Source: a virus
Reading direction: 5' to 3' (one strand)
Length of the DNA: 37,471 nucleotides
IMG/VR virus record: IMGVR_UViG_3300043568_002506
Location: 1-37,471 of that record
A model generated the notes under the pieces. That model was not told where the DNA came from, made no database searches, and saw nothing but the letters and a program-made list of their open reading frames with translations. The position numbers and the translations under genes were made by a program. Positions within the stretch are counted from its first letter, which is position 1, and each line of letters starts with the position of its first letter. This document shows positions 1-15,880 of this stretch, one piece after another.

Positions 1-120
1 GACACAACCATCGTTATTGGATAATACAACGGTTGGCTTTCCTATTGAGATAGGATTAAATACTCTTTCACATGACACGTAAAAATTGTTGCAATCAACA
101 ATACCAATCTTCTTATTCAT
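1..120 (-). CDS. umuC: DNA polymerase V catalytic subunit UmuC (Y family), 5' part only
   Basis: Only the first 40 codons are inside the window; the gene runs off the left edge. The visible N-terminus holds the hallmarks of Y-family polymerases: the first catalytic aspartate in [15 protein letters not shown] (Asp9), followed by [14 protein letters not shown], a signature of the UmuC branch (E. coli UmuC has the same DVNAFYASCE and [11 protein letters not shown] blocks). UmuC carries out error-prone translesion synthesis together with processed UmuD. The ATG shares its A with the umuD stop codon (TAATG at 118-122), so the two are translationally coupled. A phage-borne pair could raise lesion tolerance or mutation rate during infection. 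Confidence 0.95.
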
Positions 121-437
121 TATTGTTTATTTAATATCCATGAAACTTTCCCCCATAAATTTGTTTGTCCCTCGTATTTTCTTATCTTGAAACATGTCTT
201 GTCGGTTAACACAACAAGGTCTCCCTCGACAGGGTCAACAGATTTGTCAATTACAAGTATATTCCCTTTCTTTACACCGAGTGAATCGGGACCCATATAC
301 TTAAAATAAAATGTGGTGTGAACGTTGTCAATGATAAGTTCGTTGAGGTCCAATCTCTTATCAACATATGATTCCGCGGGTGATGCAAATCCAGTGGTTC
401 TTGACTTAATACGTAATTCTTTTTCTATGGCAGACAT
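120..437 (-). CDS. umuD: UmuD-like S24 peptidase, short form
   Basis: A 105-aa homologue of UmuD (E. coli 139 aa). Residues 16-34 ([19 protein letters not shown]) match the UmuD block just after the self-cleavage site, and PDSLG at 50-54 carries the nucleophile Ser52 in place of GDSM. Three things are odd. The cleavage dipeptide Cys-Gly is Thr15-Gly16. In a simple alignment the catalytic Lys97 falls on Arg86 (FKIRKY, residues 83-88), with a lysine only one position later. About 25 residues are missing before the final strand ([11 protein letters not shown]). It may be a pre-shortened polymerase V cofactor rather than an active self-cleaving protease. It is coupled to umuC by TAATG. Confidence 0.88.
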
Positions 438-441
438 ACCA

Positions 442-449
442 CAAAAATA
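442..449 (-). promoter_or_regulatory. Bacteroidota-type -7 box of umuDC
   Basis: On the minus strand TATTTTTG fits the Bacteroidota -7 consensus TAnnTTTG and lies exactly 4 nt before the umuD ATG (TGGT between). About 20 nt further up is TTTT rather than the preferred TTTG. Transcription would begin at or next to the start codon, which would give a leaderless mRNA. Confidence 0.5.
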
Positions 450-477
450 ATAATTTTGTCTGTAAAAGAAAAATTAT

Positions 478-1191
478 TTATGGCTTTATTTTGATGTGGA
501 ATTCTTCGAAGAAGTCAGGATAACTTTCTAAGTATCCTTGTAAGGTTTCATCATCATAATCAATATCTTCAGCATTCCAAAACCAATACAAATCTTTATT
601 CGCTTTGAATCCATAGTAGTCGTGGTTGTCATATTGAAGTTCACAAATTTTATCAGCATATTGATGTTGTCCAACACATATGAATCCTGAAGTTATATCT
701 TTGATGATGTTTGATTCACCGTATGGTATGTATCTATTGTTAATCCAATTTAATCTTTCGATGAGTTTTTGGTAATACATGTTTGCCGAACCCCATCTGA
801 CTGAAGAGAAAAACATAACACAATCAGACTCAAATAGTTCTTTACTTATCTTCCAAAGTTCATCATCAGGATTGTGTATTGACGCCCAACATCTGTGATA
901 ACCTGTTGGGTTCTTTTCCTCGTCTTTTAACTGAGCCTCCATAATACCACAAACATTTCCTTCCATCCTTGAAACGTTACCTTCACATGGATAAATCTTG
1001 AGTTTAGAAGTATCAATTAATAAGGAGTTTTCAACATTGTTGTTGATGATTTGTGCAAGGATTGAAGATTTTGGTGTTTGGGTCTTTATTACTTCGGCAC
1101 CTCTGTTGGAGCAGGTTAGAAGTAACACACGTTTGAACTTTTTTAGTTCTTCAATAGTTTGTTTCAGTCTTTTAAAATTACCTTCAGTCAT
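478..1191 (-). CDS. NAD(P)H-dependent FMN reductase / flavodoxin-fold protein
   Basis: About 237 aa from the chosen ATG at 1191; an upstream in-frame start at 1242 would run deep into the preceding gene, whereas 1191 gives an 8-nt ATGACTGA overlap. The N-terminus (RVLLLTCSNRG, then KSSILAQII) fits strand 1 and the phosphate-binding loop of FMN-binding flavodoxin folds. The middle has a CEGNVSRMEGNVCG cysteine segment and SSVRWGSANMYYQKLIERLNW, the usual acceptor-loop block of NADPH-dependent FMN reductase family members. The family moves electrons from NAD(P)H via FMN; the substrate here is unknown. It lies in a tight minus-strand operon with the next two genes. Confidence 0.7.
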   Translation of the reverse strand: MTEGNFKRLKQTIEELKKFKRVLLLTCSNRGAEVIKTQTPKSSILAQIINNNVENSLLIDTSKLKIYPCEGNVSRMEGNVCGIMEAQLKDEEKNPTGYHRCWASIHNPDDELWKISKELFESDCVMFFSSVRWGSANMYYQKLIERLNWINNRYIPYGESNIIKDITSGFICVGQHQYADKICELQYDNHDYYGFKANKDLYWFWNAEDIDYDDETLQGYLESYPDFFEEFHIKIKP

Positions 1192-1822
1192 GATTATAAA
1201 TAGTTGGGTCAATCCATTTTTCCCCCTCCCAAAATTCAGCACCAGTAATTTCTAATTTGTAAGGAAAGTAATCCTGATATGATTCGTAAATGTATAAATA
1301 ATTCTTACCTTGTGTCTTTCCGTAATTACTTAATAGTAGTATGGAATCCTTACCGAAAGAAAATTTTAACTCAGTATGAATAAACGCAGTCTCCAATCCC
1401 AACAACACATTTTCAAATTCTCTGAACCTCGTGTATGCCACAACAACATTATCCAATTTAACTTTCATGATTTTCAAATCACCATAAGTTGAGTTATTGT
1501 TGAAGTATTCTAATATGTCAAATCCTTTCCATTTGAAATAATCCTGAAAGAATAAATCAACATCTTCTTTGTTGTCTACATAGGGGATGATTTCTATCTC
1601 GAGTTGAGATAATAGTTTTTTTCTCTTGTAGGATAAAACAACTTTTTCATTGTTGATTCTACAACTTTTGGCTTGATACCAATAGATGGGTGGTTGAACA
1701 TTTGGCAGAAAACCTAGTCCTAAAAGTTCTTCTTCTGTTTCTCCTTCAGGGATTACAAACGCCTCACAAAAAACCCTATCATCCTTAACGTGTCCGTGTA
1801 GATGGTCAAATATTATTTTCAT
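1184..1822 (-). CDS. arginyl/leucyl-tRNA-protein transferase-like protein (tentative)
   Basis: A 212-aa protein of mixed alpha/beta composition. The N-terminal part contains IYWYQAKSCRIN and the C-terminal part NYLYIYESYQDYFPYKLEI followed by a closing W. The layout is reminiscent of the C-terminal GNAT fold of arginyl-tRNA-protein transferases, where an aromatic and lysine-rich segment precedes a terminal tryptophan. The resemblance is weak: the CPK-type motif of true Ate1 is not seen. If correct, it would attach an amino acid to protein N-termini and mark host or phage proteins for degradation. Its ends overlap both neighbours, so it is cotranslated with them. Function should be treated as uncertain. 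Confidence 0.4.
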   Translation of the reverse strand: MKIIFDHLHGHVKDDRVFCEAFVIPEGETEEELLGLGFLPNVQPPIYWYQAKSCRINNEKVVLSYKRKKLLSQLEIEIIPYVDNKEDVDLFFQDYFKWKGFDILEYFNNNSTYGDLKIMKVKLDNVVVAYTRFREFENVLLGLETAFIHTELKFSFGKDSILLLSNYGKTQGKNYLYIYESYQDYFPYKLEITGAEFWEGEKWIDPTIYNHD

Positions 1823-2519
1823 TCCTATATTTTTCGTCTAACTTGTCGTATTCCTGAGACCTATCTTTGTTGGATTCACCTGCTTCTAAGTCTGTGTGGT
1901 CATAATTGAATACATCGGTGTCAGGTGTTACCCATCTACCATTTCTTTCTGCTGTCCAAAGAGTGGTGTTATATTTTCTATTAATAACAATATCCTCTTT
2001 AACAGTAAAAGATGGGTCGTGCATTATTAAACGATTGTTTGGTTGAATGGCGAAGTTTCCATTATCCATCTGAATGAAATGCCCACATTTATGTTGAGAT
2101 GGAAATTCACTCAGTCCAAAGTCTGTGTCACTCATATCAGTGGAACTACCCCAATCTAATGTGAATAAGTAACGTCCTGAATATTGAACTCTTCTTCTTG
2201 AAGTGAATTTACATGTCTTATTTTTGAGGATTGGAAACGCCGTAACTCCAACATGATAAGTGAATGAATCCCATAAAACGAGTTCGTCTAATTCTTGTTG
2301 TGGAGCATCTTCTTTCCAACAGAAAGCGTGTATAGGCATTCTCCACCAAATTCCACCATCTTCCATCATAAAGTGAAATAGTGGTGCTTGAGCAGGAATT
2401 GAAGACATACCGAAGATATAACACGGGAACTTTTTGTCGAATGAATCTTCCTGATTTCTAAGAAAATTACCTCTGATGAAAGCTTCGACGATAGGTGTAG
2501 GTGTGTTTAAATAAGACAT
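1806..2519 (-). CDS. conserved phage protein of unknown function
   Basis: A 237-aa soluble protein rich in aromatic and aspartate residues (PLFHFMMEDGGIWWRMPIHAFCW at residues about 46-68, a CGHFIQMDNGNFAIQPNNR block at about 145-163) with a charged, disordered C-terminal tail. I recognise no catalytic motif. The composition and the first gene position of the operon resemble hypothetical proteins of marine T4-like phages, but this is recollection, not a search. It overlaps the following gene by 17 nt. The upstream region is AT-rich without a Shine-Dalgarno sequence. Confidence 0.75.
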   Translation of the reverse strand: MSYLNTPTPIVEAFIRGNFLRNQEDSFDKKFPCYIFGMSSIPAQAPLFHFMMEDGGIWWRMPIHAFCWKEDAPQQELDELVLWDSFTYHVGVTAFPILKNKTCKFTSRRRVQYSGRYLFTLDWGSSTDMSDTDFGLSEFPSQHKCGHFIQMDNGNFAIQPNNRLIMHDPSFTVKEDIVINRKYNTTLWTAERNGRWVTPDTDVFNYDHTDLEAGESNKDRSQEYDKLDEKYRNENNI

Positions 2520-2568
2520 ATAGTATTTTAATTTTTATAATGATAGAAGAAATCTTTTGATTTGTAAA

Positions 2569-2598
2569 ATAAAAAACCCCCACCGTTAAGTGAGGGTT
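2569..2598 (-). terminator. Rho-independent terminator after the DoxX-like gene
   Basis: On the minus strand a 9-bp stem AACCCTCAC / GTGGGGGTT (one G-U pair) with a 6-nt loop is followed directly by a T-run. It lies just after the stop of the gene at 2617-2958 and just before the next minus-strand gene. Confidence 0.85.
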
Positions 2599-2616
2599 TC
2601 TATTAAATTTGAATGA

Positions 2617-2958
2617 TTAGAAACTACTTGTTAGAATATAACCAACAACCGCCGCAACTCCTACTAAGAAAGGAATATAAGTTTTATTTCCTCCCATAAG
2701 TGAAAGATGAAGTGCAATTGCTCCACTCATGAAACATGACATTAAAACTGCACCATAGAGTGATGTTGCTGGAATAACAAGAAGAACCGCTGCAAGTAAT
2801 TCACCTACACCTGTTGCTACTCTGATATTCTCTAATTTCATGTAAGCGAAATTTCCCACCGCTTCTTGGGTTCCTCTGATTTTGTCGATAGCACCTTTTC
2901 CAACAAACACTGCTGTAAGAGCTGAAATCACAAATCCGATAATTGATAATGTTACCAT
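2617..2958 (-). CDS. DoxX-like integral membrane protein
   Basis: A 113-aa protein with about four hydrophobic helices (residues 3-22, 48-66, 68-84 and 92-112). The segment VATGVGELLAAVLLVIPATSLYGAVLM and a conserved HL (HLSLMGG) match the DoxX/DoxX-like family, small membrane proteins linked in bacteria to quinone or thiol redox chemistry. It sits alone between two intergenic gaps, with a TATTTATA motif 24 nt before its ATG on the minus strand and its own terminator. What a phage gains is unknown; it may modify host membrane redox state. Confidence 0.75.
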   Translation of the reverse strand: MVTLSIIGFVISALTAVFVGKGAIDKIRGTQEAVGNFAYMKLENIRVATGVGELLAAVLLVIPATSLYGAVLMSCFMSGAIALHLSLMGGNKTYIPFLVGVAAVVGYILTSSF

Positions 2959-3023
2959 AATTAATTTTTTTTAAAGTATAAATAAACTACGTTTGAAAGT
3001 AAAATGAAAACTTCTTACGTTGA

Positions 3024-3749
3024 TTAAACAAGTTTGGGAACCGTTGACAAAGCATTGAAGTGTCCTGAAGCATTTGATGAAGTAGCACCTTTAATTTTAC
3101 TACCTCTACCTGAACTTCCACCGTGAAAAACATTTTTTCTTGGAAGACCTTTGGAAACTGCGGACTCAATTCTATTAATAACTTTTTGTGACGCAGAGTA
3201 TGGCTCGATTATATACACTTTATTCATGTTCGCATTCGAGTTATCTGAAATTGTGGATATTTTATTTGTGCCAGCACTAAACAAAAAGATTGGTATGTTT
3301 GGATTTTTATCTATGTAATCGTTAATTTTGGAATCTAAATCATAGTAGTGAAATGATTTTATTTTAACGTTCGAACCTAACCCTTTTTGTAATAATCTTG
3401 TTTGACCATCCAATCCCATGTCTGTTTCTAATCCTCCAACAAAAATCACATCAGATATGTTATTGACCACATCTTTAAATTCCTTTGGCGTTTTTCCCTG
3501 TAAATATAACTTGTGAGCCTTAGCAGTATAACGACCGTATTTTCCATCCACACCATCTTCATTTTGACCATAACCACCCAAATCGAAACCTTGATTATTC
3601 AAGAATTCTTGTAGTTTTTCAACCTCGGGATTAAATGTATTGGAAATGTCAAACTTTTTATCTACAATATTTTCGATTTTATCTTTCCCAATAAGTGGAA
3701 AGAATTCCTTGAGTATTGTTAATTGTGATTCATTGATAATAATTCTCAT
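3024..3749 (-). CDS. leader-peptide protein with peptidoglycan-binding-like domain
   Basis: A 241-aa protein. Residues 1-16 (MRIIINESQLTILKEF) are the shared leader seen in several proteins of this window, ending in L-K-E, a possible prohead-protease cut. Residues 41-82 look like a PG_binding_1 repeat (VEKLQEFLNNQGF, then GVDGKYGRYTAKA). The rest has strand-rich segments (VIFVGGLETD, IFLFSAGTN) that suggest an alpha/beta hydrolase-like or Rossmann-like domain, with a Gly/Ser-rich C-terminus (HGGSSGRGSK). A head-packaged protein with a cell-wall binding domain could act early in infection; this is inference. It starts 2 nt after the preceding stop codon. Confidence 0.75.
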   Translation of the reverse strand: MRIIINESQLTILKEFFPLIGKDKIENIVDKKFDISNTFNPEVEKLQEFLNNQGFDLGGYGQNEDGVDGKYGRYTAKAHKLYLQGKTPKEFKDVVNNISDVIFVGGLETDMGLDGQTRLLQKGLGSNVKIKSFHYYDLDSKINDYIDKNPNIPIFLFSAGTNKISTISDNSNANMNKVYIIEPYSASQKVINRIESAVSKGLPRKNVFHGGSSGRGSKIKGATSSNASGHFNALSTVPKLV

Positions 3750-3751
3750 AA

Positions 3752-4948
3752 CTATATTTCTACTTGCTTAACATTAATTGGGCTATCCCATATAAAACTT
3801 ATTCTATAATCTTTAACCTTCTCATGTCCTATTGGGGATGAAACATTGAATCCCATTCCATAGGCATTATTAATGAACTCGTCTTGGAACATTAAAACTT
3901 TTTCACCATAATCATCCGAATTGTTTGGATTGTATTCAGTAAATAAAGGTCTGATAGTAACTGCAAAATCCCATCTCAAACCAACACTTTTTGGATTATT
4001 AAAGTTCTGTCCCCACATTTTTTTATCGACATTAGTAACTGCAACCCCAACCAAACCTTCAACAGGATTTTCCTTTTTTGTTATTTTTGTAATAATATCT
4101 ACAATCTTTTGAAATTCTCGTTTTTCATCTCCTTTGAAGTTAAGTAACTTTTTTAAATAGTCCCCTAAATTGGCTTCATTGACTCTTTTCTTCTTAACCT
4201 TCACACAATTAGGATATCTTTTACCGAACATTGTCTTCATTCCCTTTTGGGTATATCCCTTCCAACATCTCTCGGTAATCTCACCTTCGTTTTGTTGTTG
4301 TTCGTCAAGTTCCTCCTCCCTGCAAGTATTTTCGTATATATCAATTAAGTATTTACCAAATTCATCTCTACACAATTTTCTCATATAATCCATCACATCA
4401 TCATAATAATCTTCGTCATATATGTCTTCATCAAACTCATCAAGCAATTCATAAATTGCATAATTAATTACCGCATCAGCATATTCGTATCCGTCTTCGA
4501 AATCATCACATAAAGTTGGATAATTAATTTCACCCTTTGTAATATATTTTTCTAATGTTTTTTGATTAGCTCTTCGTTTAATTGTGCTAGAAACTCTTGA
4601 TTCATTCTGTTCTTGTTTGTTTTGAATTGACTTTTTACATTCTGTCACGGTGCTTGAGTCTAATTCCACAGCTAATCCTGTAAATCTGAATATTGTCTCC
4701 CACATCTCCTTCATCACTTTCTCTCGAGAACTCTGAACTGCTTGAGTCATCGGCCAAATCTTGGAATTTGGACCACCGACAAAGATAACCCTTAAAGAAT
4801 ATTTTTTTGGATTCATTACGTTTTGAAAAACTTGGACTTCACAAACATAATCACTGTATCTGTCAACGGTAGGTTGTAAAAGTTCTTCGATAACTGAACT
4901 TAGATTTCTAAATTCTTCTCTCAATATTTTCTTAATGATTTCTTTCAC
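3752..4948 (-). CDS. multidomain leader-peptide protein, possible head polyprotein
   Basis: A 398-aa protein with a GTG start at 4948; an overlapping ATG reads into TGA at once. Residues 1-12 (MKEIIKKILREE) form an amphipathic leader ending in L-R-E. Residues 25-110 are a small alpha/beta unit, and 145-215 are very acidic and helical. Residues 226-249 contain the motif RCWKGYTQKGMKTMFGKR ending in PNC. Residues 255-272 (RVNEANLGDYLKKLL) resemble a second, internal leader, followed by another alpha/beta unit. Candidate [I/L]-x-E cuts occur at residue 11 and before RCW (ITE at about 224-226). It may be matured into separate head proteins. TATTTAT lies 4 nt before the GTG. Confidence 0.7.
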   Translation of the reverse strand: MKEIIKKILREEFRNLSSVIEELLQPTVDRYSDYVCEVQVFQNVMNPKKYSLRVIFVGGPNSKIWPMTQAVQSSREKVMKEMWETIFRFTGLAVELDSSTVTECKKSIQNKQEQNESRVSSTIKRRANQKTLEKYITKGEINYPTLCDDFEDGYEYADAVINYAIYELLDEFDEDIYDEDYYDDVMDYMRKLCRDEFGKYLIDIYENTCREEELDEQQQNEGEITERCWKGYTQKGMKTMFGKRYPNCVKVKKKRVNEANLGDYLKKLLNFKGDEKREFQKIVDIITKITKKENPVEGLVGVAVTNVDKKMWGQNFNNPKSVGLRWDFAVTIRPLFTEYNPNNSDDYGEKVLMFQDEFINNAYGMGFNVSSPIGHEKVKDYRISFIWDSPINVKQVEI

Positions 4949-5013
4949 ATTTATAAATATATTGGTTTTAGATTGTAATTAAATCAATTCAGTTCCCGTA
5001 ATATTTATAATTG
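4949..5013. promoter_or_regulatory. divergent start region with TATTTAT boxes on both strands
   Basis: The 65-nt space between two divergent leader-peptide genes holds TATTTAT on the minus strand at 4953-4959 (4 nt before the GTG at 4948) and on the plus strand at 5002-5008 (5 nt before the ATG at 5014). If these are promoters, both mRNAs would be leaderless or nearly so. Function is inferred from recurrence of the box elsewhere in the window. Confidence 0.5.
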
Positions 5014-5757
5014 ATGAAATACGTTATAACAGAACGACAATATAATATCATTAAGGAAATTGGTAGAGAATCGGGTCATTTTGACTTTGAACCCCTTGAA
5101 AGTTTTTTTGAATATATGGATGACCAACTCCCTAAAAAACAAAAAGTAAAATTATTCAAAGAGTTTTTCAGGGAAAAGATGGGTCTTGGGGTTGAAGAGG
5201 ATGACTTTCTTATTGGTGATATCATAGACTACTTCGATAACCCACTTAGAAGTGAATGGGGTGATATTTTCAAAACAAAAGATGCTCGTTCAGGTTTCGC
5301 TCATTTCGTAGCTAAAAAATATTTTGGTCTTGAGGAAAAATTTGGTTTATCTTACATAATAAATAAACTCTCTGATAACAACACTCGTATTTACTATTTC
5401 TTTGACCCTAAATTTAAAATATTTGTTGGTCGGTTTGTAATTGAAAAATCTCAACAAAAAAAAATATATAATGTTCAATTAAGCACCGCAGATGAGGAAT
5501 TGGTTGGAACAGGATATGGCACAAAAATGTATTTAATAATAATAGATGATGTGGATTATTTAGCTTCCGATACAATTTTATATAGTGGGTCTTATAGAAT
5601 TTGGAAACATGTTCTGCCAAAATATGTGAATGTTTGGGGAGTCATAGATAATGACTATGGTTTACCAAAAACTATAATCAGAATGGATGAAAAAGGAAAA
5701 AAATCCGTAAAAAGGTTTGATTATTTTCTTGCATCATCAAAACACAATAAAGTATGA
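5014..5757 (+). CDS. leader-peptide protein of unknown function
   Basis: A 247-aa protein. I chose the ATG at 5014 over a TTG three bases earlier because of the spacing to TATTTAT. The N-terminus MKYVITERQYNIIKEI is the clearest relative of the leaders at 3749 and 5757: hydrophobic, then E-x-Q-aromatic, ending in I-K-E. The body is soluble, with several FF/YF-rich strands, and residues 150-190 (NVQLSTADEELVGTGYGTK, then YLIIIDDVDYL) hint at a GNAT-like glycine loop (GTGYGT), though this is not a firm call. The C-terminus is lysine-rich. The stop overlaps the next gene (ATGATG). Confidence 0.7.
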   Translation: MKYVITERQYNIIKEIGRESGHFDFEPLESFFEYMDDQLPKKQKVKLFKEFFREKMGLGVEEDDFLIGDIIDYFDNPLRSEWGDIFKTKDARSGFAHFVAKKYFGLEEKFGLSYIINKLSDNNTRIYYFFDPKFKIFVGRFVIEKSQQKKIYNVQLSTADEELVGTGYGTKMYLIIIDDVDYLASDTILYSGSYRIWKHVLPKYVNVWGVIDNDYGLPKTIIRMDEKGKKSVKRFDYFLASSKHNKV

Positions 5758-6167
5758 TGCAATACATTATAAAAGAATCACAGTTTTCAATTATAGTTGA
5801 GAACACTCGAATTGGGTTGTTCCAAGACCTAATTGATAGTAATTTGGCATATATTCGTAAAGAATGTGAAGAAGGTGTTGAATATGTTGGTATTTTGAGC
5901 GATGAGTCGTGTGAGCAACTTGAAAAACTTGAAAAAATTGAAGTAACTAGTGCGGATTGGGTTAAAGTTAAACATAGTAACAAACCTAAGGAAGAAAATT
6001 ACATGAGTGTCAGGATTATGGTATACTACAGTTCAATTTATAAATACGGTAATTTTGATGTAGATGACTTAGCTTACGAATTGGAAAAAGCTCTTCGGAA
6101 GTCAACAGGAATGCCGCTGATATTGAACTATGACACAACAAATACAAACACTTCTTTCGAGTGGTAA
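5757..6167 (+). CDS. leader-peptide protein with small alpha/beta module
   Basis: A 136-aa protein. The ATG at 5757 (or 5754, one codon earlier) overlaps the previous stop. Leader MQYIIKESQFSIIVEN follows the pattern [Y/I]-I-I-x-E-S-Q-[hydrophobic], ending in I-V-E. The remainder is one strand-helix-strand unit: YMSVRIMVYYSS, then DVDDLAYELEKALRKSTG, then LILNYD. Similar units occur in the proteins at 6169, 7952, 17475 and 3752. No catalytic residues are apparent. It is translationally coupled to its upstream neighbour, which carries the same leader type. Confidence 0.7.
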   Translation: MQYIIKESQFSIIVENTRIGLFQDLIDSNLAYIRKECEEGVEYVGILSDESCEQLEKLEKIEVTSADWVKVKHSNKPKEENYMSVRIMVYYSSIYKYGNFDVDDLAYELEKALRKSTGMPLILNYDTTNTNTSFEW

Positions 6168-6168
6168 T

Positions 6169-6540
6169 ATGAACAAACACGAAAAAACCATAAAGTTATT
6201 AGAATCGTTCCTGAACGATTATTCCATCGAAGGTGTTTGTGGGTTTTGGGTAGATGACGAGCTAGATGTCCTTTCAAACTACTTTGTTGTTGTAATTCTT
6301 GATATCGATTGGATACAAAAAATTCAAACCAAACCTGAGTTCGTGGCAAAAAGACTTAGAGACCGTATCAAAGACGAGATAAAAAAATATTTAGGTATAA
6401 ACGTTACGGTTGGGTCGGTTGCAAAAAAATGTGTCAACTCAGAATCTTTAATTGAGTCAAAAAAAGATTATATTGTGAATGAATCTCAATTAAAACTGTT
6501 AATTAAAGTAAACAACTCCAGTTCCCGTTACATGTCCTAA
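6169..6540 (+). CDS. small alpha/beta protein with leader-like motif at its C-terminus
   Basis: A 123-aa protein from the ATG at 6169; an in-frame ATG at 6130 would overlap the previous gene by 38 nt and is less likely. It contains a strand (YFVVVILDIDWI), a long basic helix (FVAKRLRDRIKDEIKKYLG) and a strand (INVTVG), as in the preceding protein. The last 25 residues include DYIVNESQLKLLIKV, which matches the N-terminal leaders of its neighbours but sits at the C-terminus. The final 42 nt overlap the 3' end of the convergent methyltransferase gene. Function unknown. Confidence 0.65.
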   Translation: MNKHEKTIKLLESFLNDYSIEGVCGFWVDDELDVLSNYFVVVILDIDWIQKIQTKPEFVAKRLRDRIKDEIKKYLGINVTVGSVAKKCVNSESLIESKKDYIVNESQLKLLIKVNNSSSRYMS

Positions 6541-7056
6541 ATTAGTTAAGTCTTGTTTGTCTAACTCAATTAGATTCCAAAATTCAACCATTTCTTTATT
6601 CAAAAATATATCATCTAACAAGAGATATCCCTTGTATCCCAATTGTTTCAAGTGATTATAAAATTGTAATTCGAAGGTTCCATCGTGAAAAGTGTCCAAC
6701 AAAATTAACTTTGCAGACATGATTAGTTCGTCGTATGAACCATTTAAAATATTATCGACCTTAAATTCACAGTTTTCGGGAATAGTATTGAGTTCTTTTT
6801 CTTCGTTCAAATTGAAAGAATAAACCTTATTCGATAAATTGGATGATAACGCCAATGCGGAACATCCTTTTAATGTTCCAATATCAATAATTGTTTCACC
6901 ATTTAGTTGTTGAGAAAGGTGAGTTAATAATCTATAATGTTCTTTTGAAGATTTTTCAGTGTAGTATTTTTGATATTCTAAATTAGAAATTAAAGAATAT
7001 GTAGACATATCGAAGTTGTCTAATGTATTGTTATCTATGTTGAATAACTCTTTCAT
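6499..7056 (-). CDS. class I SAM-dependent methyltransferase
   Basis: A 185-aa protein. Motif I is IIDIGTLKGCSALAL (residues about 56-70), followed by the acidic ribose-binding end of strand 2 (VYSFNLNEE). A later LILLDTFHDGTFELQFYNHL, then GYLLLDDIF, is typical of the Methyltransf_24 group of small-molecule and sugar methyltransferases (D in LLLDDIF as a possible metal or substrate contact). The substrate cannot be read from sequence; sugars or small phenolics are the usual ones. Its 3' end overlaps the opposite-strand gene at 6169-6540 by 42 nt. Upstream is A/T-rich with no Shine-Dalgarno sequence. Confidence 0.75.
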   Translation of the reverse strand: MKELFNIDNNTLDNFDMSTYSLISNLEYQKYYTEKSSKEHYRLLTHLSQQLNGETIIDIGTLKGCSALALSSNLSNKVYSFNLNEEKELNTIPENCEFKVDNILNGSYDELIMSAKLILLDTFHDGTFELQFYNHLKQLGYKGYLLLDDIFLNKEMVEFWNLIELDKQDLTNLGHVTGTGVVYFN

Positions 7057-7105
7057 AAAATATTTTTTTATAAGATAAAAAACAGATAACTAAAATCAAT
7101 CTGTT

Positions 7106-7285
7106 TTACTTATTTGGTTCAAGTAATCTGAAATTAACTATCTTTTTTCCGTTAATTGTTGGCATCCCATGTTCATCTCTCCCAATACTTTTGACGGTTA
7201 CTTTTCTGTTTTTGAACCTTCCCATAAGAATCACATCCCCAACCTTGATGGGAATGATGATACCTTCGATACGATTTTCTCTCAT
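7106..7285 (-). CDS. small phage protein, 59 aa, probable SH3-like barrel
   Basis: A short complete ORF: ATG at 7285, TAA at 7106. The product begins MRENRIEGIIIPIKVGDVIL and continues MGRFKNRKVTVKSIGRDEHG, then MPTINGKKIVNFRLLEPNK. The alternation of short strands with V-G-D, G-R-F-K-N-R-K and G-x-P-T turns suggests a small all-beta, SH3-like fold. I recall similar 60-aa proteins in marine phage genomes but cannot verify this. It lies 8 nt after the stop of the upstream gene at 7294, so the two are probably cotranscribed. Confidence 0.7.
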   Translation of the reverse strand: MRENRIEGIIIPIKVGDVILMGRFKNRKVTVKSIGRDEHGMPTINGKKIVNFRLLEPNK

Positions 7286-7293
7286 ATCTATAA

Positions 7294-7593
7294 CTATTCA
7301 GGTTCGTTCTTAAGAACCGCTTCCAAAACTCCAATAGAATCTTTATCTTGTTTGGTCTTTGTTGGTTTTGATTTGAGATAGTTCAAGTTGTCTATAATTT
7401 CTTGTCTCCTTGTTTTGGTTTTGGGTTTAACCGATATTGACTGAACCTCAGGATAACTCGGAGAAACCTGTGGAACAGTCTCAGTCTTTTTTGGCGGTTG
7501 TCCTCCACAATACATCATATGATAAACTTGGGCAGTAGTTGTAGGGTCTTTAACCATACGTTTTAGGAAGTAAAATCGGAGTATTTTTATCAT
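7294..7593 (-). CDS. small protein of unknown function
   Basis: A 99-aa protein: a basic N-terminus (MIKILRFYFLKRMVKD), then TTTAQVYHMMYCGG, a proline- and threonine-rich linker, and a lysine-rich C-terminal helix (RRQEIIDNLNYLKSKPTKT). No family recognised. I keep the ATG at 7593 because a host-type -7 box (TATCTTCG) ends exactly 4 nt before it, the same spacing as at umuD and at the FeoA-like gene; an internal ATG at 7557 is possible. It heads a two-gene minus unit with the 59-aa gene. Confidence 0.6.
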   Translation of the reverse strand: MIKILRFYFLKRMVKDPTTTAQVYHMMYCGGQPPKKTETVPQVSPSYPEVQSISVKPKTKTRRQEIIDNLNYLKSKPTKTKQDKDSIGVLEAVLKNEPE

Positions 7594-7597
7594 ACCA

Positions 7598-7605
7598 CGA
7601 AGATA
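7598..7605 (-). promoter_or_regulatory. Bacteroidota-type -7 box
   Basis: TATCTTCG on the minus strand, 4 nt (TGGT) before the ATG at 7593. No clear TTTG is seen at the -33 distance, so this is weaker than the promoter on the other strand at 7628-7659. Confidence 0.45.
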
Positions 7606-7627
7606 CTAATTATTTTGAAATAAATTG

Positions 7628-7659
7628 TTTGAAACTTGAAGACTTTATACTTATCTTTG
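7628..7659 (+). promoter_or_regulatory. Bacteroidota-type promoter of the FeoA-like gene
   Basis: TTTG at 7628-7631, a 20-nt spacer and TATCTTTG at 7652-7659 give a full -33/-7 match. Only TATA separates the box from the ATG at 7664, so the transcript should start at or near the first codon. Confidence 0.75.
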
Positions 7660-7663
7660 TATA

Positions 7664-7939
7664 ATGTTAATAACCGAAAAACATATTGGAAAAACCTTGA
7701 GGATAAGTGGTGTCCCACAAAAACTTGATTGTGAAAACTGCAAAGTATGTATTCGCCTTCGTATTATGGAATTAGGATTGTTTGAGGGTGAGTATATACA
7801 AATTGATAGTCATAGTCATGGACTATGGAGACTTCAAATTCTAAATGGTAAAGGAGTTTCTATTTCAGGCGTAGCTTTAAGAGACGAGGAAATGGAACGA
7901 GTGTTTGTGGAAGATGATTGTAGTTTTGAACTAGTTTAA
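7664..7939 (+). CDS. FeoA-domain-like small protein
   Basis: A 91-aa protein. Residues 32-80 follow the FeoA pattern: LRIMELGLFEGEYIQIDS, a central WRLQILNGKGVSIS, then the closing VALRDEEMERV. FeoA domains are SH3-like barrels that support the FeoB ferrous iron transporter or occur in metal-dependent repressors. Here the N-terminal part also carries Cys23, Cys26 and Cys29 (CENCKVC), which could bind a metal and are not standard in FeoA. It is monocistronic or joined to the next gene, and is driven by a strong host-type promoter with almost no leader. Role in the phage unknown; modulation of host iron uptake is one guess. Confidence 0.65.
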   Translation: MLITEKHIGKTLRISGVPQKLDCENCKVCIRLRIMELGLFEGEYIQIDSHSHGLWRLQILNGKGVSISGVALRDEEMERVFVEDDCSFELV

Positions 7940-7951
7940 TATTTATATACC

Positions 7952-8245
7952 ATGGATAATAATGCGAACCAAGTAATGAAAAAAATGCTTCAGAAAATCA
8001 CTGATAGCGTTGTTTCTAATAGAAAATATTCATCATTAGATAAGGTCGAAATATTTTTTGTGTTCGGTTCTAAACATAAAACCGCAATGTGTGATTGGGT
8101 TTATGGTATGAAAATTTATTCTAAAGGTTCCTTTGGTCTTAGACGCGAATTGGTTCAGGAACTCCAAATGGAAATTAAGAAAAAATCTGAAAGGTTTTTT
8201 GACCAAAGTCTTTGTGTTACAGACGTTATTTTCGTTAAAGATTAA
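7952..8245 (+). CDS. small alpha/beta protein of unknown function
   Basis: A 97-aa protein with the order helix, strand (VEIFFVFGS), strand (YGMKIYSKG), long helix (LRRELVQELQMEIKKKSERFF), strand (CVTDVIFVKD). The layout resembles the proteins at 5757, 6169 and 17475. TATTTAT lies at 7940-7946, 5 nt before the ATG. Its stop overlaps the convergent protease gene by 4 nt. No catalytic motif. Confidence 0.65.
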   Translation: MDNNANQVMKKMLQKITDSVVSNRKYSSLDKVEIFFVFGSKHKTAMCDWVYGMKIYSKGSFGLRRELVQELQMEIKKKSERFFDQSLCVTDVIFVKD

Positions 8246-8643
8246 TCACAGTAAAGAACCTCCGAATGTTGAGGATATTCTTTCTGAAACATTTTCATAA
8301 AAATACCCGATAGAGCATTCGCCATGTTTTCATGAGGTCCACCGATATCAGGGCTTTCAGAAAAATCGTCAACACCCATTTTCTGTTGTTGATATTCATG
8401 AACCCATTCATGAGATAATGTTCTTAAAATATCAATTAACAATCTCCCTTTAACAAGAACACTAATTTCACTTTGAGGCATCCTCACACCTGTAGTCATA
8501 TTGATATCCCTATTATCAACAAAAAATAAATTAACATCTTTATTCAAAGGAAGATTCTCCTGTTGAAATTTTATAAAGTCGGTCAAAACTTTGATGTCGT
8601 TTTTATCTAAATCGGATGTTTTATATTTAAGACACACTTTCAT
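8242..8643 (-). CDS. zincin-type metallopeptidase
   Basis: A 133-aa protein with HEWVH at residues 78-82, the HExxH zinc site, and GGPHENMANA at 101-110, where Glu105 is the likely third zinc ligand (gluzincin-like arrangement). The size suggests a minimal catalytic domain without a signal peptide. Known HExxH phage proteins may be virion-associated or act on host proteins; the substrate here is unknown. It overlaps the start of glf by one base (TAATG) and the convergent gene by 4 nt. Unlike the two zincins at the right end it has no leader peptide. Confidence 0.75.
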   Translation of the reverse strand: MKVCLKYKTSDLDKNDIKVLTDFIKFQQENLPLNKDVNLFFVDNRDINMTTGVRMPQSEISVLVKGRLLIDILRTLSHEWVHEYQQQKMGVDDFSESPDIGGPHENMANALSGIFMKMFQKEYPQHSEVLYCD

Positions 8644-9746
8644 TAATCATAAATACTATGGTCCGATATAAATTTAAGTGCTTGGGCTATTATCTGATGC
8701 ATATCATAATAAACATATGTTGCCAATCTACCACCAAAATAGACGTTTTCTTGACCTTTTGTTAGTTCATGATACTTGTTATAGGTTTGAGTGTTTTTAT
8801 CGTCTCTAATTGGGTAATAGGGTTCATTCTTACCGTCATATGCCGCAGGAAATTCATAACTAATGACAGTTCCTTTTTGGTTTTGATAATCAAACCACTT
8901 GTGTTCCAATATTCGAGTGTATGATGTTTTAAGGTCAGTGTAATTTACCACAGGAACCCCTTGGAAGTTATCTTTATTTAGTATTTCAGTTTCCCACCTT
9001 AAACTCCTATATTCCAATTTACCAAACTGATAATCAAAGAATTTATCAATTGGACCTGTATAAATAATTTTATCTGCAAGACTATTATAATATTCTTTAT
9101 CCTCGAAATAATCCTTACCAAGTTGAACATCAGAACCTTCTAACATCTTCTCAAATATTTGAGTATATCCACCGATGGGCATCCCAGTATACTTGTCGTT
9201 GAAGTAATTACTATCCCACGTAAACCTTACTGGGAGTCTTTTGATAATTGATGCTGGCAGTTGATTACACGGCTTATCCCATTGTTTGACTGTGTATCCG
9301 TTGATGAGTTTTTCGTATACATCTTCACCAACCATTGACCGTGCTTGGTCTTCGAGGTTTTGAATTTTACCTTTATACCTTTGTTTTTCAAGGATTTCTT
9401 TTGCCTCTTCTTCAGTTTTAACACCCCATAGTTGGTTGAATGTCCACATGTTGAATGGGAGTGTATACATTTCCCCTTTGTAGTTTGCAATGACATTGTG
9501 TGTATATTGTTTAAATTCTGCAAATTGATTTACGTAATCCCAAATGTGTTTATCGTTTGTGTGAAATATATGTGCACCATATTTGTGAACATGGATTCCA
9601 TTTACGTTTTCAGTGTAGCAATTTCCACCTATAACATCACGCTTGTCTATAACCAAACACTTTTTACCCTTTTTGGTTAATTCATATGCGGAAACGGAAC
9701 CATACGGTCCCGCCCCAACAATCAAATAATCATAATGTTTTTTCAT
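8643..9746 (-). CDS. glf: UDP-galactopyranose mutase
   Basis: A 367-aa protein, the usual length of bacterial UGM. The FAD-binding Rossmann motif VGAGPYGS is at residues 10-17, GGNCYTE at about 41-47 and HKYGAHIFHT just after; the characteristic RFTWDSNYFND, EYRSLRWETE and VYFGGRLATYVYYDMHQ blocks are all present. The enzyme converts UDP-galactopyranose to UDP-galactofuranose in the cytoplasm with reduced FAD. The neighbouring glycosyltransferases and the GalE-like epimerase at 24319 would provide a full route from UDP-glucose to a Galf-containing glycan. It is coupled to both neighbours by one-base overlaps. Confidence 0.95.
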   Translation of the reverse strand: MKKHYDYLIVGAGPYGSVSAYELTKKGKKCLVIDKRDVIGGNCYTENVNGIHVHKYGAHIFHTNDKHIWDYVNQFAEFKQYTHNVIANYKGEMYTLPFNMWTFNQLWGVKTEEEAKEILEKQRYKGKIQNLEDQARSMVGEDVYEKLINGYTVKQWDKPCNQLPASIIKRLPVRFTWDSNYFNDKYTGMPIGGYTQIFEKMLEGSDVQLGKDYFEDKEYYNSLADKIIYTGPIDKFFDYQFGKLEYRSLRWETEILNKDNFQGVPVVNYTDLKTSYTRILEHKWFDYQNQKGTVISYEFPAAYDGKNEPYYPIRDDKNTQTYNKYHELTKGQENVYFGGRLATYVYYDMHQIIAQALKFISDHSIYD

Positions 9747-10900
9747 TAACTAAAAAAATCTACACTGTTTGAATCAATAACATATTCAATATCTTTTTTA
9801 TCTAAATTACTTAACCAATCCGATAAAAAACTACTTGTATTATGATATGCTCGGTCCTCAATCAAGAAAGTATGGTGAGGAAATGGATTTGTTCTTTCGG
9901 GTTTTATCATGAAATTCAAGATTTCTTTTATTTCATCCTTCCTTCCTAACTTATCTAATTCCAAACATTTATACAACAAACTCTCATTTCTTTTTGGTGC
10001 AAATTCTTGAGCATAATCATAAAACTTTAATCCTTTTTCAATTTCACCTAAGAAAATATAGGAACCTCCCATTAACATAAGCGATAAATATGCCATCTCA
10101 TTTAATGTTTTCGGTTTTGTTCCTTCAATCCAATTATGACTTTTCTCCATGTATTTGTGAAAATACCAAATTGCTCTTCTACAATATTCTTGTGAATGGT
10201 CCATACCAAAAGGATATTGTGTGTGGTCACCGTAACAATCAAAATAACTCTTGGCAAGATAAAACAAATGATAATGGTCTTCATTAACTTTATCTCCAAC
10301 CACTTTATCAATTTCAAGCTCCAAAGCATCTCTCAAAAACTTCCTTGGCACGAACCATGTCTCTCCATCGTTGGATACAATGTGTCTGAATCCGTATGGC
10401 ATTGGTAGCCTTTGGAAGTCTTCACCAATTTCAGGTAAATGTATAGTTTCATGTCTTTTGTCATGCTGAAAAAACCATGGTAACTTAGCATTCCAAAACC
10501 AAGTTCTAAAATATCTTGTGTCCCAAGCTTGAGCTGTTATATTATAACTTTGAACTGAAGTATCATTCAATATTGTCCAGTCAAAATCCGAATCAACATG
10601 AAGTCTTTCGTCAGCATCCATTCTTAGTATCCAATCGCAACCATGAGAAGTCCTTAAACATGTTTGAAGTGTGTGGTCTCTGTTAGCACCTGGAAAATCC
10701 CACTCGATAAAGTATGTTAATCCAGGAATGCCTTTTTCTTGAAAAAAGTTGTCAATGATTTCTTTAGTGTTATCTTCTTTTCCATTACATTGGATTACAT
10801 AGTAATCAATATAAGGTGCAACGGATTCTAACATTCTTGTGATTGTGTTGGCCTCATTACCAACCATCGAATTTAAACAAATTTTAGTTTTCTTGTTCAT
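9746..10900 (-). CDS. family 2-like glycosyltransferase
   Basis: A 384-aa protein with an N-terminal GT-A fold: ICLNSMVGNEANTITRMLES at residues 8-26, typical of the GT2 branch that begins with KNEE-like loops, and the metal-binding MDADER at 94-99. The C-terminal half is alpha-helical and TPR-like (SLMLMGGSYIFLGEIEKGLKFYDYA, then LYKCLELDKLGRKDEI), as in several phage and capsule transferases. Donor and acceptor are unknown; the glf context suggests a galactofuranosyl or related transferase. Its start overlaps the end of the upstream fusion gene by 17 nt. Confidence 0.85.
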   Translation of the reverse strand: MNKKTKICLNSMVGNEANTITRMLESVAPYIDYYVIQCNGKEDNTKEIIDNFFQEKGIPGLTYFIEWDFPGANRDHTLQTCLRTSHGCDWILRMDADERLHVDSDFDWTILNDTSVQSYNITAQAWDTRYFRTWFWNAKLPWFFQHDKRHETIHLPEIGEDFQRLPMPYGFRHIVSNDGETWFVPRKFLRDALELEIDKVVGDKVNEDHYHLFYLAKSYFDCYGDHTQYPFGMDHSQEYCRRAIWYFHKYMEKSHNWIEGTKPKTLNEMAYLSLMLMGGSYIFLGEIEKGLKFYDYAQEFAPKRNESLLYKCLELDKLGRKDEIKEILNFMIKPERTNPFPHHTFLIEDRAYHNTSSFLSDWLSNLDKKDIEYVIDSNSVDFFS

Positions 10901-12725
10901 ATATATAATTCATTATTTCTTCTTCATTATAATACTTTCGTATTGGTGCCCTATTTTGAAATTTTTGAGAATGTCCTTCTTCATCATCCCAATTCCAATC
11001 ATGAAACCCTAATTCGATTATTCTTTTATGAATTGCTGAATCGTAGTGGTCTCTTATTAATCTTGCTCTCCTGTTGATGTCTTGTGCATTATTATCTACG
11101 GTGCTATTTTTGTTATTATATTGAAAATATAAAACATCTTTCACATGAATCATTTTTGTTTTCAAAAAAGTTCTGATAATAAGTTCCAAATCATCTGCAA
11201 CGGGCATCTTTTTATTGTGTCCACCGATTTCATGATATAATTTTCTTTCCCACATCCTTGCATGATTTGGCATTGAAATATTGAATCTGATTGTTAAAGG
11301 ATTTATATCAGGGTAATGATGTGCTAATACGTCTTTACCATCCACATTTACCCAAGAATGTCCTGCATACCCAAAATCAAAATAATTATCGTTTCTGGCA
11401 TACCAATCACCATCCCAAGAATGGTCATATGTTTTCATTTCTCCATCTTCATACATTTCACAACAATTCGTATACAAAAATTTAGCATCAGTATATTTTT
11501 CAATTGCTTGATTTGATATCTTTAAACATTTAGTTGTTAAATAATCATCATGGTCTAGTTCAACTAACCAATCACCATCACATAACATTGCAGCTCTATG
11601 TTTAGCCAATCCAATGTTTCCACCTGATAAAGGGTAAATTCTGTTAATTTTGACTCTATAGTCTTTATCCGCAATTTCTTGGAGGAGTTTCCAAGTTTCA
11701 TCATCAGGTGAATCATCAACCACAACCCATTCCCAATTAGTCCACGTCTGATTATTTAAACTTTCATACGTTCTTTTAATACGTTCACCTGTTTGATAAA
11801 CTGGTGTAAATATTGAAAATCTTGGTCGGTTGACCTTACAGTGTTTGAAAACCGTCTGACAAATAATATCATTTGCCAATACATTGTTATGTAAAATTTT
11901 ATCATATTTCAAATGTATTTGTTTAAGAAAATAATGTGGAACATTAATCTTTTCTCCAAATGAAATAATTAAATCTGGTTTATATTTTGAAAAATCTTCA
12001 ACAACTTTATCGGTGTAGGGAAGAGAATAGATTATCACATCTTCATACAATGATTCTTCAAAATAAACATCTGAGACTAATATTTCAGTCCCCAACCTAT
12101 CCAAACCATAAACAATAGCACTTGGTTTTTTTGTTTTCATATTATTTGTAATTTCTTTCTTTTTGCTTTCACCTTTAATTCCATAAAAATATAAATCTGA
12201 CGCTAACATCATGTTTGCAGTCTTCAATTCAAAATAACCATTTGGGAAAGTTTCATTAAAATTAGGGATTTGTTTAAAATCCAAATGATTTAGATTTTTA
12301 TAATAGTCTCCCCATCCTTTAACTTTTTGTTCAAGAAGATATGCATCCCATGGTGATGTTCTATTTGTTCCATGTTCAGGTCTATCAGGAGCAGCACAGG
12401 TGAAGATAAAAAGACCTCCGTTCTTTAACATTCTAATGATGTTTTTTACACTCTCCTCATAAAACATATCATGTTCAAACGTTTCTGTTGAAATGATAAC
12501 GTCAAAATATTCATCGGGACCATTGTATTCGTGTGCTGAAGCTACAATATCGACATTTGGCCCTGTTCCTATATCGATGCCAATATATTCAGAGTCCTCG
12601 AATAAGTAACGATTGTTTCCATTATTATCCAATGAACCAACATCTAATACTTTTTTGTTTTTGAACATCTCAGGATATTTCACCCTAACACTTTCACAAA
12701 ATTCTCTTTGTTCTTTGTGAGCCAC
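10884..12725 (-). CDS. methyltransferase-glycosyltransferase fusion
   Basis: A 613-aa protein with a GTG start at 12725. Residues 1-185 are a Methyltransf_11-like domain: VLDVGSLDNNG at 27-37, IGIDIG at 48-53, FDVIISTETFEH at 74-85. Residues 200-300 form a Rossmann-like linker (AIVYGLDRLGTEIL, then DLIISFGEKI). Residues 301-570 are a GT2 domain: SIFTPVYQTGERIKRTYESL, VVVDDSPDDE at about 335-344 and the metal site DHDD at 391-394. Fusions like this build and cap or methylate a growing glycan. The sugar is unknown. It heads the glycan operon 8643-12725. Confidence 0.88.
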   Translation of the reverse strand: MAHKEQREFCESVRVKYPEMFKNKKVLDVGSLDNNGNNRYLFEDSEYIGIDIGTGPNVDIVASAHEYNGPDEYFDVIISTETFEHDMFYEESVKNIIRMLKNGGLFIFTCAAPDRPEHGTNRTSPWDAYLLEQKVKGWGDYYKNLNHLDFKQIPNFNETFPNGYFELKTANMMLASDLYFYGIKGESKKKEITNNMKTKKPSAIVYGLDRLGTEILVSDVYFEESLYEDVIIYSLPYTDKVVEDFSKYKPDLIISFGEKINVPHYFLKQIHLKYDKILHNNVLANDIICQTVFKHCKVNRPRFSIFTPVYQTGERIKRTYESLNNQTWTNWEWVVVDDSPDDETWKLLQEIADKDYRVKINRIYPLSGGNIGLAKHRAAMLCDGDWLVELDHDDYLTTKCLKISNQAIEKYTDAKFLYTNCCEMYEDGEMKTYDHSWDGDWYARNDNYFDFGYAGHSWVNVDGKDVLAHHYPDINPLTIRFNISMPNHARMWERKLYHEIGGHNKKMPVADDLELIIRTFLKTKMIHVKDVLYFQYNNKNSTVDNNAQDINRRARLIRDHYDSAIHKRIIELGFHDWNWDDEEGHSQKFQNRAPIRKYYNEEEIMNYIYEQEN

Positions 12726-12743
12726 TTTTATTATTTTTTATTT

Positions 12744-13073
12744 TTATAATTCGTAAGGTTCACTTAATTCCCAACTTGTTAATACAAATTCTAATTCAAG
12801 AAAGGTGATTTGTCCATAGTTATCTTTAATTGCAGTCGCTCTCAATCCTCCACTTGATACAAAATATACGTCCTCAGGAACTGCATCCAATAAACAATTC
12901 TTGATTACTGTTTCCAACCTGTCACGAGCGGCGAATCTGATATCATCAACAGTTGGTATACCTTTTCCATACCATTCCCAATTTAGATGATTCATAACAA
13001 TATGAACTTTATCAAAATCAAAATTGTTAATAATATCAAACATCATCTTCTGATGTCTTTCGTGTTTTGTCAT
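12744..13073 (-). CDS. conserved phage protein of unknown function
   Basis: A 109-aa protein. It contains MNHLNWEWYGKGIPTVDDIR, a helix (AARDRLETVIKNCL), then VSSGGLRATAIKDNYG and a final strand (FLELEFVLTSW). The order W-x-W, P-T, helix, GG-hydrophobic resembles small unknown proteins common in T4-like marine phages (recollection only). It starts 2 nt after the preceding stop codon and ends 18 nt before the glycan operon, so it is probably cotranscribed with it. Confidence 0.65.
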   Translation of the reverse strand: MTKHERHQKMMFDIINNFDFDKVHIVMNHLNWEWYGKGIPTVDDIRFAARDRLETVIKNCLLDAVPEDVYFVSSGGLRATAIKDNYGQITFLELEFVLTSWELSEPYEL

Positions 13074-13075
13074 CC

Positions 13076-13276
13076 TTAAAATTTGTATTTGGAAGTTTTG
13101 CCAAATTTAATCCAATCATTTTTCTCTTTTAATCCGAAATGATTAAGCATTATCGGGAAACTACTTTTATCAAAGACATCGTTATTAGATAATTTTTTCA
13201 AGGTTGAAAGAAACTCAACTATTTCTATCTCAGAAACTTCATTGTTCTCAATTGATTTTTTCAATTCTGATATCAT
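13076..13276 (-). CDS. small helical protein of unknown function
   Basis: A 66-aa protein from the ATG at 13276 (MISELKKSIENNEVSEIEIV); the longer reading from 13318 would begin inside the terminator region and is unlikely. It is predicted to be mostly helical: an acidic first half (EVSEIEIVEFLSTLKKL) and a basic C-terminus (WIKFGKTSKYKF). No family recognised. It lies 2 nt upstream of the next gene. Confidence 0.55.
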   Translation of the reverse strand: MISELKKSIENNEVSEIEIVEFLSTLKKLSNNDVFDKSSFPIMLNHFGLKEKNDWIKFGKTSKYKF

Positions 13277-13304
13277 AACATTATTTTTATGACAAATATA
13301 AAAA

Positions 13305-13331
13305 ATAAAAAACCCCAATCAAATTGGGGTT
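13305..13331 (-). terminator. Rho-independent terminator
   Basis: A perfect 9-bp stem (AACCCCAAT / ATTGGGGTT) with a 3-nt loop, followed on the minus strand by a long T-run. It closes the transcript ending with the gene at 13336-13650. Confidence 0.9.
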
Positions 13332-13335
13332 CAAA

Positions 13336-13650
13336 TTATTTTTTGTATAGTGTTTTGAGGACGGAAAAAATACCTGCCAACATAAAGAGTTGGACCGACC
13401 AAAAAGGGAACCCTTGAAGTTCATGTAACATCCAAAATATGTTCATGAAGACCCAACTTGATAATATTAAATTGGACTCTCTGTTCTGTTTTTCTTTGAA
13501 TAAAATATATAAGGTTAGGAACCCTGTGGGAAGCACCATGAAAGTCGCCATTAAGGGTAATTTAAGACACCAAAAAACGTCTTTCATCAACCAACAGGTA
13601 ACGTGTGTCTCTTGAAGAGACCATGTCTTAAATGGGTTCCTTATTCCCAA
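13336..13650 (-). CDS. integral membrane protein of unknown function
   Basis: A 104-aa protein with three hydrophobic helices: residues about 26-52 (VFWCLKLPLMATFMVLPTGF), 62-78 and 82-98 (VQLFMLAGIFSVLKTLY). The N-terminus is soluble with WSLQETHVTCW. No family recognised. Its ATG lies 10 nt inside the end of the AdoMet decarboxylase-like gene, so the two are cotranslated. Confidence 0.6.
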   Translation of the reverse strand: MGIRNPFKTWSLQETHVTCWLMKDVFWCLKLPLMATFMVLPTGFLTLYILFKEKQNRESNLILSSWVFMNIFWMLHELQGFPFWSVQLFMLAGIFSVLKTLYKK

Positions 13651-14036: not shown

Positions 14037-14069
14037 TATAATTAAATCTTTAACATATATATCACAATA

Positions 14070-14104
14070 AAATAAAAACCCCCACATTTCTGTGAGGGTT
14101 TTCC
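14070..14104 (-). terminator. Rho-independent terminator
   Basis: On the minus strand a stem of about 10-12 bp (AACCCTCACA / TGTGGGGGTT core, one G-U) closed by a GAAA tetraloop and followed by a T-run. It lies just downstream of the 36-aa gene and just upstream of the speD-like start. Confidence 0.9.
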
Positions 14105-14118
14105 TTATACTTTTTGTT

Positions 14119-14229
14119 TTACTTCTTCACGAACTTCTTTACGAAATTAACAACGTGAGGAAGAGCGAAAAATCCCACTACCACACCTGATAAAAAGTGC
14201 CAGGGTAATAAGAAATTTAAATTTTCCAT
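14119..14229 (-). CDS. 36-aa single-span membrane peptide
   Basis: ATG at 14229, TAA at 14119. The product starts MENLNFLLPWHFLSGVVVG, continues FFALPHVVNFVKKFVKK: one hydrophobic helix and a tetra-lysine amphipathic tail. It has an A-rich upstream region and a terminator directly downstream, so it stands as a unit of its own or ends the beta-barrel transcript. Small basic-tailed membrane peptides of phages can be antiholin- or lysis-related, or modulators of host membrane complexes; nothing here decides this. Confidence 0.6.
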   Translation of the reverse strand: MENLNFLLPWHFLSGVVVGFFALPHVVNFVKKFVKK

Positions 14230-15876: not shown

Positions 15877-15880
15877 GGCT

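Follow-up and report, generated by a model that had tools for sequence, protein, structure and literature searches.

Why would a leader-like motif stand inside one viral protein and near the C-terminus of another? Two open reading frames (ORFs) raise this question in a stretch of 37,471 bases, here called the window (IMG/VR virus record IMGVR_UViG_3300043568_002506, positions 1 to 37,471), which is part of an uncultured T4-like phage. One encodes 398 amino acids (aa) and was originally predicted to be a polyprotein cut into parts, with a second leader behind an I-T-E site; the other encodes 123 aa and carries the motif near its C-terminus, which had been ascribed either to a movable scaffold-binding tag or to gene fusion. 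Neither protein matched a Pfam family at E up to 0.01. Comparison with homologues suggests that both proteins are chains of small interchangeable units with junctions resembling sites of the phage's own head protease, so that gene fusion, and not a tag that works at both ends, is the probable origin of the oddly placed motifs.

Leader classes and the mosaic 398-residue protein

Three classes of leader recur at N-termini: Q (YIITESQ), L (RLTESDLxxIVKRVIKE) and R (LxxxIRRILREE). In a survey of pattern (regex) matches over 1371 distinct mechanical ORFs, class Q was N-terminal 58 times, internal 7 times and C-terminal once, class R 126, 14 and 2 times, and class L 30, 1 and 0 times. Among 1115 non-redundant ORFs, [LIVM][NT]E[SA] occurred 0.79 times per 100 residues in the first five positions versus 0.07 beyond residue 40, and [LI]xE 3.2-3.7 times in the first 20 positions versus 1.45, the reversed Ex[LI] itself reaching 2.4 in the first five versus 1.48. 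Of the 60 window ORFs with 60 aa or more, 7 start with a leader by pattern; the 398-aa protein has one, and the 123-aa protein starts without one. The class-Q leader MRIIINES begins another window protein (3024-3749, minus strand), whose weak peptidoglycan-binding match falls short of the Pfam cut-off.

The 398-aa protein divides into the following parts.

3752..4948, minus strand: the 398-aa three-body fusion protein, an ORF with mosaic relatives
4913..4948, minus strand: N-terminal class-R leader, residues 1-12 (M/VKEIIKKILREE), with L-R-E; it resembles the T4 gp24 start MAKINELLRES
4634..4894, minus strand: body A, residues 19-105, an HMM family
4328..4582, minus strand: body B, residues 123-207, an HMM family
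4271..4279, minus strand: ITE, residues 224-226, a predicted prohead-protease site preceding the CW module
4190..4270, minus strand: CW module, residues 227-253, mostly C-terminal in relatives
4175..4183, minus strand: VNE, residues 256-258, a possible off-consensus site preceding body C
3755..4174, minus strand: body C, residues 259-398, common to the relatives L005 and L006

The body A family comprises 67 domains in 56 proteins, with up to three copies per chain, and is represented in both the 398-aa and the 123-aa proteins; the body B family comprises 95 domains in 82 proteins. The two relatives L005 and L006 match the 398-aa protein from about residue 215 onward, retaining the CW module, the VNE junction and body C, whereas their N-terminal part is different or nearly absent, with bodies A and B replaced or missing. 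For the full-length 398-aa protein, AF2 gave a poor model (mean pLDDT 50.3); body A alone gave a mean pLDDT of 88.7, the body lying mostly above 90, with the fold H H E E H E. This model found no match in the PDB at E 0.001, just weak ones to small alpha-beta folds, and one match in BFVD, to an uncharacterised phage protein (8.1e-4). We rejected naming a function for body A.

Searched by tblastn among named phages, the 398-aa protein matched 30 records, every one from a cyanophage, and all of the 20 matches listed were confined to residues 203-320. The shared core reads [LI]xE-[RK]CWxGYTQKGMKTMFGKRYPNCVK, in short [LI]xE-[RK]CWxGY...NCVK. From a scan of viral contigs that gave 185 relatives, the best 80 of the 185 were kept; in these loci and three cyanophage regions, the first pattern for the module occurred in 67 distinct ORFs. 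After grouping into 52 clusters, with one member per cluster and named phages excluded, the module was C-terminal in 37 and internal in 15, the preceding bodies were diverse, and [LI]xE stood one residue ahead of CWxGY in 52/52, as it did in 7/8 module copies of a further contig set. Six cyanophage proteins had LDE, LDE, ISE, FNE, FKE or no such site before the module, and only three of the six a canonical [LI]xE. The I-T-E triplet, which had been placed at about residues 224-226 and lies exactly there, opens a separate mobile module, usually C-terminal in relatives, which the original prediction had overlooked.

One module-bearing cyanophage protein is annotated as a virion protein, a label that presumably rests on the virion mass spectrometry reported for S-SCSM1 (PMC9602691); the S-SM1 homologue is annotated as hypothetical, not structural, and an analysis of the S-SM1 virion has been reported (PMC3037559). 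The module is also carried by three contigs of metagenome-assembled genomes (MAGs) from different groups. As separate observations, the 335-kb contig PBPT01000016.1 (L121), binned as a Marinimicrobia MAG, carries the module and may be an unrecognised phage genome, and a mosaic protein of phage Bellamy (L003:2819-4675, plus strand) has DUF192 and DUF6321 domains beside it.

The second leader proposed for residues 255-269 fared differently. The segment RVNEANLGDYLKKLL is present there, but leader profiles reject it: a fraction of 0.988 of shuffles scored as high with the class-Q profile (trained on 61 N-terminal leaders from outside the window) and 0.9994 with the class-R profile (trained on 81 leaders). 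Though not leader-like, the segment is, as judged from the mosaic relatives, a boundary between units with a bare VNE↓A site (the arrow marks the expected cut). The junction between bodies A and B reads QNES and is non-canonical.

The 123-residue protein and its fused relatives

The features around the second protein are as follows.

6169..6540, plus strand: the 123-aa protein, a member of the body A family followed by the leader of a next unit, the second unit being absent
6193..6432, plus strand: its body A copy (HMM E 2.6e-21)
6454..6510, plus strand: ESKKDYIVNESQLKLLIKV, class-Q leader, residues 96-114, the junction to the second unit in relatives
5754..6167, plus strand: neighbour gene with an N-terminal class-Q leader; its body is fused, with the leader internal, in L091
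6499..7056, minus strand: convergent ORF; it overlaps the 123-aa gene at its end, the place that the second unit takes in relatives

The mechanical ORF of the 123-aa protein begins earlier, at 6130. Its predicted C-terminal motif, DYIVNESQLKLLIKV, occupies residues 100-114 and is a genuine leader by profile: it scored 19.3 with the class-Q profile. Among 5000 shuffles of the protein none scored as high, and in the window 2 of 10,933 positions did, the other being the N-terminus of 5011-5757. The two segments singled out by the original prediction both exist, yet differ in kind, one being of leader type and the other a bare site between units. Both read VNE and are off-consensus (V-x-E). Valine precedes xE in all five distinct internal leaders of the ESKK type, whereas I or L does so in 78 of 88 N-terminal class-Q leaders, which may reflect common descent or fusion accompanied by a weaker site. 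Internal class-Q leaders after ESKK (L006, L022, L035, L057 and window 6466-6510) also precede different bodies, and a leader of this type looks as if it were itself a recombination point.

A direct search with the 123-aa protein against viral contigs found no relative; those used here were recognised among the ORFs of other loci. In the alignment with four longer relatives, all retain the body and ESKKxYxVxESQ, two of the four have extra units inserted ahead of ESKKxYxVxESQ, and in 4/4 a second unit follows the leader. Because these relatives continue into a second unit that is missing in the window, the C-terminal leader is best read as the start of a unit since lost. A tblastn match of a second unit at 6636-6713 (E 0.023) is weak and lies inside the convergent ORF, and we took it as chance. 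The convergent ORF, which by eye we take to be methyltransferase-like, had no Pfam match and no counterpart among the other 1461 ORFs.

The body of the neighbour gene is encoded as a separate gene with an N-terminal leader in the window and in L088, L089 and L090; in L091 a 362-aa protein ends with the same body, and the leader KYIVTESQYNLILESQKY lies inside that chain, behind KESKK. The leader in these sequences stays on the N-terminal side of the same body and turns internal when genes fuse. Homologue alignment, the check that had been proposed to see whether the motif moves between ends, consequently supports gene fusion: the motif does not switch ends. Two fusion proteins had no match among named phages, the chains L012, L037, L075 and L091 had no Pfam family at E up to 0.01, and window positions 1-20000 gave no match by megablast.

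Genes beside the major capsid gene are also mosaic. A module starting DLAVWFGKKK lies inside longer proteins after LKE, LQE or VNE, and LNE stands near the start of a separate protein with this module in L109 (L109:107-664, minus strand); the mosaic loci are L104:109-1122 (minus), L108:153-1145 (minus), L110:2491-3567 (plus) and L112:2572-3249 (plus). Elsewhere in the window, the protein at 36766-37470 (minus strand) has collagen-like G-x-x repeats and then a DRRLKKDI segment that by eye resembles a tail-fibre chaperone end, and continues past the window edge; 18913-19767 (plus) has cysteine repeats of the CxxCxGxG type resembling, by eye, a DnaJ zinc region; and 17862-18425 and 29928-30635 (both minus) are distant paralogues, sulfotransferase-like by eye, that match the same relatives' proteins at 28-38% identity.

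Junction sites and the head protease

Bodies A and B were located by HMM without their leaders, and the 28 residues before internal copies were examined after de-duplication. The [LI]xE site was found in 36 of 44 cases (19.5 expected at random positions, 16.0 after shuffling) and [LIVM][NT]E[SA] in 25 of 44 (3.7 and 0.5, respectively), with no enrichment over random positions for the controls Ex[LI] and [LI]xD. Under strict de-duplication (junctions less than 35% identical), the counts were 27/33 (14.9 expected) and 15/33 (3.0). A further set of 23 loci, searched with unchanged patterns after 119 of 338 ORFs had been dropped as near-duplicates of the first set, gave 10/13 (5.2 expected) and 6/13 (1.0).

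Tests at homology boundaries preceded these counts. The earliest (93/203 versus a control rate of 0.263) was compromised by truncated ORFs and is unused; with edge ORFs dropped, the result of 78/110 versus 0.37 is circular because it partly counts conserved leaders. Body-only homology with an interval of -16 to +3 gave 33/75 versus 0.265 (p about 0.0008, all p values taking related proteins as independent), the controls [DK]xE and reversed Ex[LI] being somewhat raised too. Recentred to -10 to +10, the interval gave 44/75, with 22.9 expected after shuffling; because it was chosen after the list had been seen, we rely on the HMM-defined test and the further contigs.

These junctions bear on the alternative that survives best, plain gene fusion without processing, in which the bodies cooperate in one chain and the leader remnants at junctions are historical leftovers. 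It would account for the valine that replaces L or I at internal ESKK leaders and at VNE-258, and for QNES between bodies A and B. Internal junctions, however, retain the site more than the leader: the full leader precedes 5 of 40 internal copies versus 47 of 84 N-terminal copies, while the short [LI]xE is kept at 32 of the 40 internal junctions. A site kept while the rest of the leader is gone speaks against leftovers, because leftovers should decay together, and we regard unprocessed fusion as unlikely, if still a serious contender.

T4 gp21 is reported to cut after L/I-X-E, and T4 internal proteins to carry a removable capsid targeting sequence (PMC9026906). The gp21 family (PF03420 / Peptidase S77) was found in 14 of the 22 relatives' contigs, including 10/10 of those of at least 187 kb, with catalytic H and S motifs that align with T4; 8 of the 22, two of 176 and 183 kb among them, had no match to the family. 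The gp23 family was present in 15 of 18 contigs, 14 above the cut-off, and leader genes adjoin gp23 in several contigs. The 37-kb window matched neither family; the 317-kb contig of L022 and L091 contains both, and the piece of it that was covered shares nine window genes. At the place of T4 FLTE↓A, the capsid proteins read L[IL][NT]E↓[AS] in 14/14, and three cyanophage capsid proteins FLAE↓A, FLSE↓A and MLNE↓Q. Internal junctions with INES, LNES or ITES resemble the aligned capsid site in form. Among the expected cut points, ITE-226 and the leader LRE-11 fit L/I-x-E; VNE-258, the VNE of the 123-aa protein and QNES do not. The claim of a polyprotein cut into parts receives indirect support from the form of these junctions, at which cutting is predicted.

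We consider it rather probable that the two proteins belong to a modular head cargo that is sometimes fused into polyproteins with predicted prohead-protease junctions. Both appear to be assembled from small exchangeable bodies that in relatives also form separate genes. The product of such a gene often starts with a leader of some 7-20 residues that includes [LI]xE and is predicted to target the protein to the capsid, as the propeptides of T4 IPIII, Alt and gp24 do. Many separate genes end in the CW module after [LI]xE, and by analogy with T4 Alt this C-terminal piece would be cut off. Upon in-frame fusion, the first leader would serve the entire chain; most fused junctions retain a prohead-protease-type site and occasionally the complete old leader, and a gp21-type protease would cut the chain into units inside the prohead, during head maturation. 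In this scheme the 398-aa protein runs leader - body A - body B - ITE↓CW module - VNE↓body C, and the 123-aa protein consists of body A and, behind it, a leader whose own unit would have been lost.

That the leaders and sites serve a role outside the head, for example with an intracellular compartment or another protease, seems quite improbable: the window genes do lie, by eye, among glycosyltransferase-like and other not obviously structural genes, but the site has the same form as that of the capsid protein, the protein starts resemble those of T4 Alt, gp24 and IPIII, leader genes are found beside gp23, and a cyanophage homologue is labelled a virion protein. A movable scaffold-binding tag effective at either protein end is the least credible explanation of all, for its one C-terminal class-Q leader (window 6466-6510) and two further C-terminal class-R matches in the survey stand against 58 N-terminal class-Q leaders among the 1371 ORFs, four homologues of the 123-aa protein that run on past the leader into another unit, and alignments in which the leader always precedes the same body, whether N-terminal or internal.

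A wider form of the cargo model extends polyprotein cargo to a large group of uncultured T4-like phages: a single leader would bring several different small proteins into the prohead as one chain, and the maturation protease would cut it at [LI][NT]E↓[SA], the type of site also used on the capsid protein, and remove the CW piece. This form appears to us evenly balanced between right and wrong. If polyprotein cargo is real, cargo repertoires would change as units fuse or split at ready-made sites, and phage head maturation would free working proteins from a polyprotein, much like in animal RNA viruses. Many anonymous proteins of large environmental phages would be explained as head-delivered cargo, and a sequence rule to find such cargo and its cut points might help to predict, for uncultured phages, which proteins enter the host cell with the DNA.

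Comparison with known systems

A literature search by titles and abstract openings, with most subscription journals outside it, did not find this arrangement described. Among the closest parallels is T4 Alt, for which processing at both ends is reported, at ITE-6 and LTE-619 (PMC5694885); the T4 record contains both sites. Its short N-terminal piece ending in ITE and the C-terminal piece removed after LTE are comparable to the leader and the CW module. Alt, however, has a single body, ends in a 63-residue tail that does not resemble the CW module, and is known from experiments to be processed, whereas processing of the proteins here is predicted. T4 IPI, IPII and IPIII are likewise varied small proteins with a short N-terminal leader ending in a site of the I-x-E type, but their leader sequences are different and they are single units, in contrast to the fused units with a C-terminal module described here. 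Class-R leaders, for example MRDLIRRILREE, are similar to the start of T4 gp24, whose exact cut place we take to be MAKINELLRE↓S; its record note gives gp24 as a substrate of gp21, but it is a shell protein and not cargo. In T4 gp22, gp67 and gp68, a single chain is cut by gp21 into several fragments; there the cuts destroy the scaffold, whereas here they would release folded bodies.

The mosaic proteins of Kyanoviridae cyanophages (such as Bellamy 123 and S-SCSM1 gp029) have the same CW module within chains of short modules, several of them near terminase genes, although their other modules differ (DUF6321, DUF192) and the sites before the module are less regular. Polyvalent phage proteins (Iyer et al. 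2017, PMC5512222) are described as having several domains per chain, and many of these proteins are predicted to enter the virion and to be freed later by proteolytic cutting. The chains described here share with them the several domains in one chain, but the Pfam search at E up to 0.01 recognised no conflict-related or peptidase domain in them. Polyvalent proteins have recognised effector domains and often an embedded peptidase, whereas the present chains would depend on the head protease.
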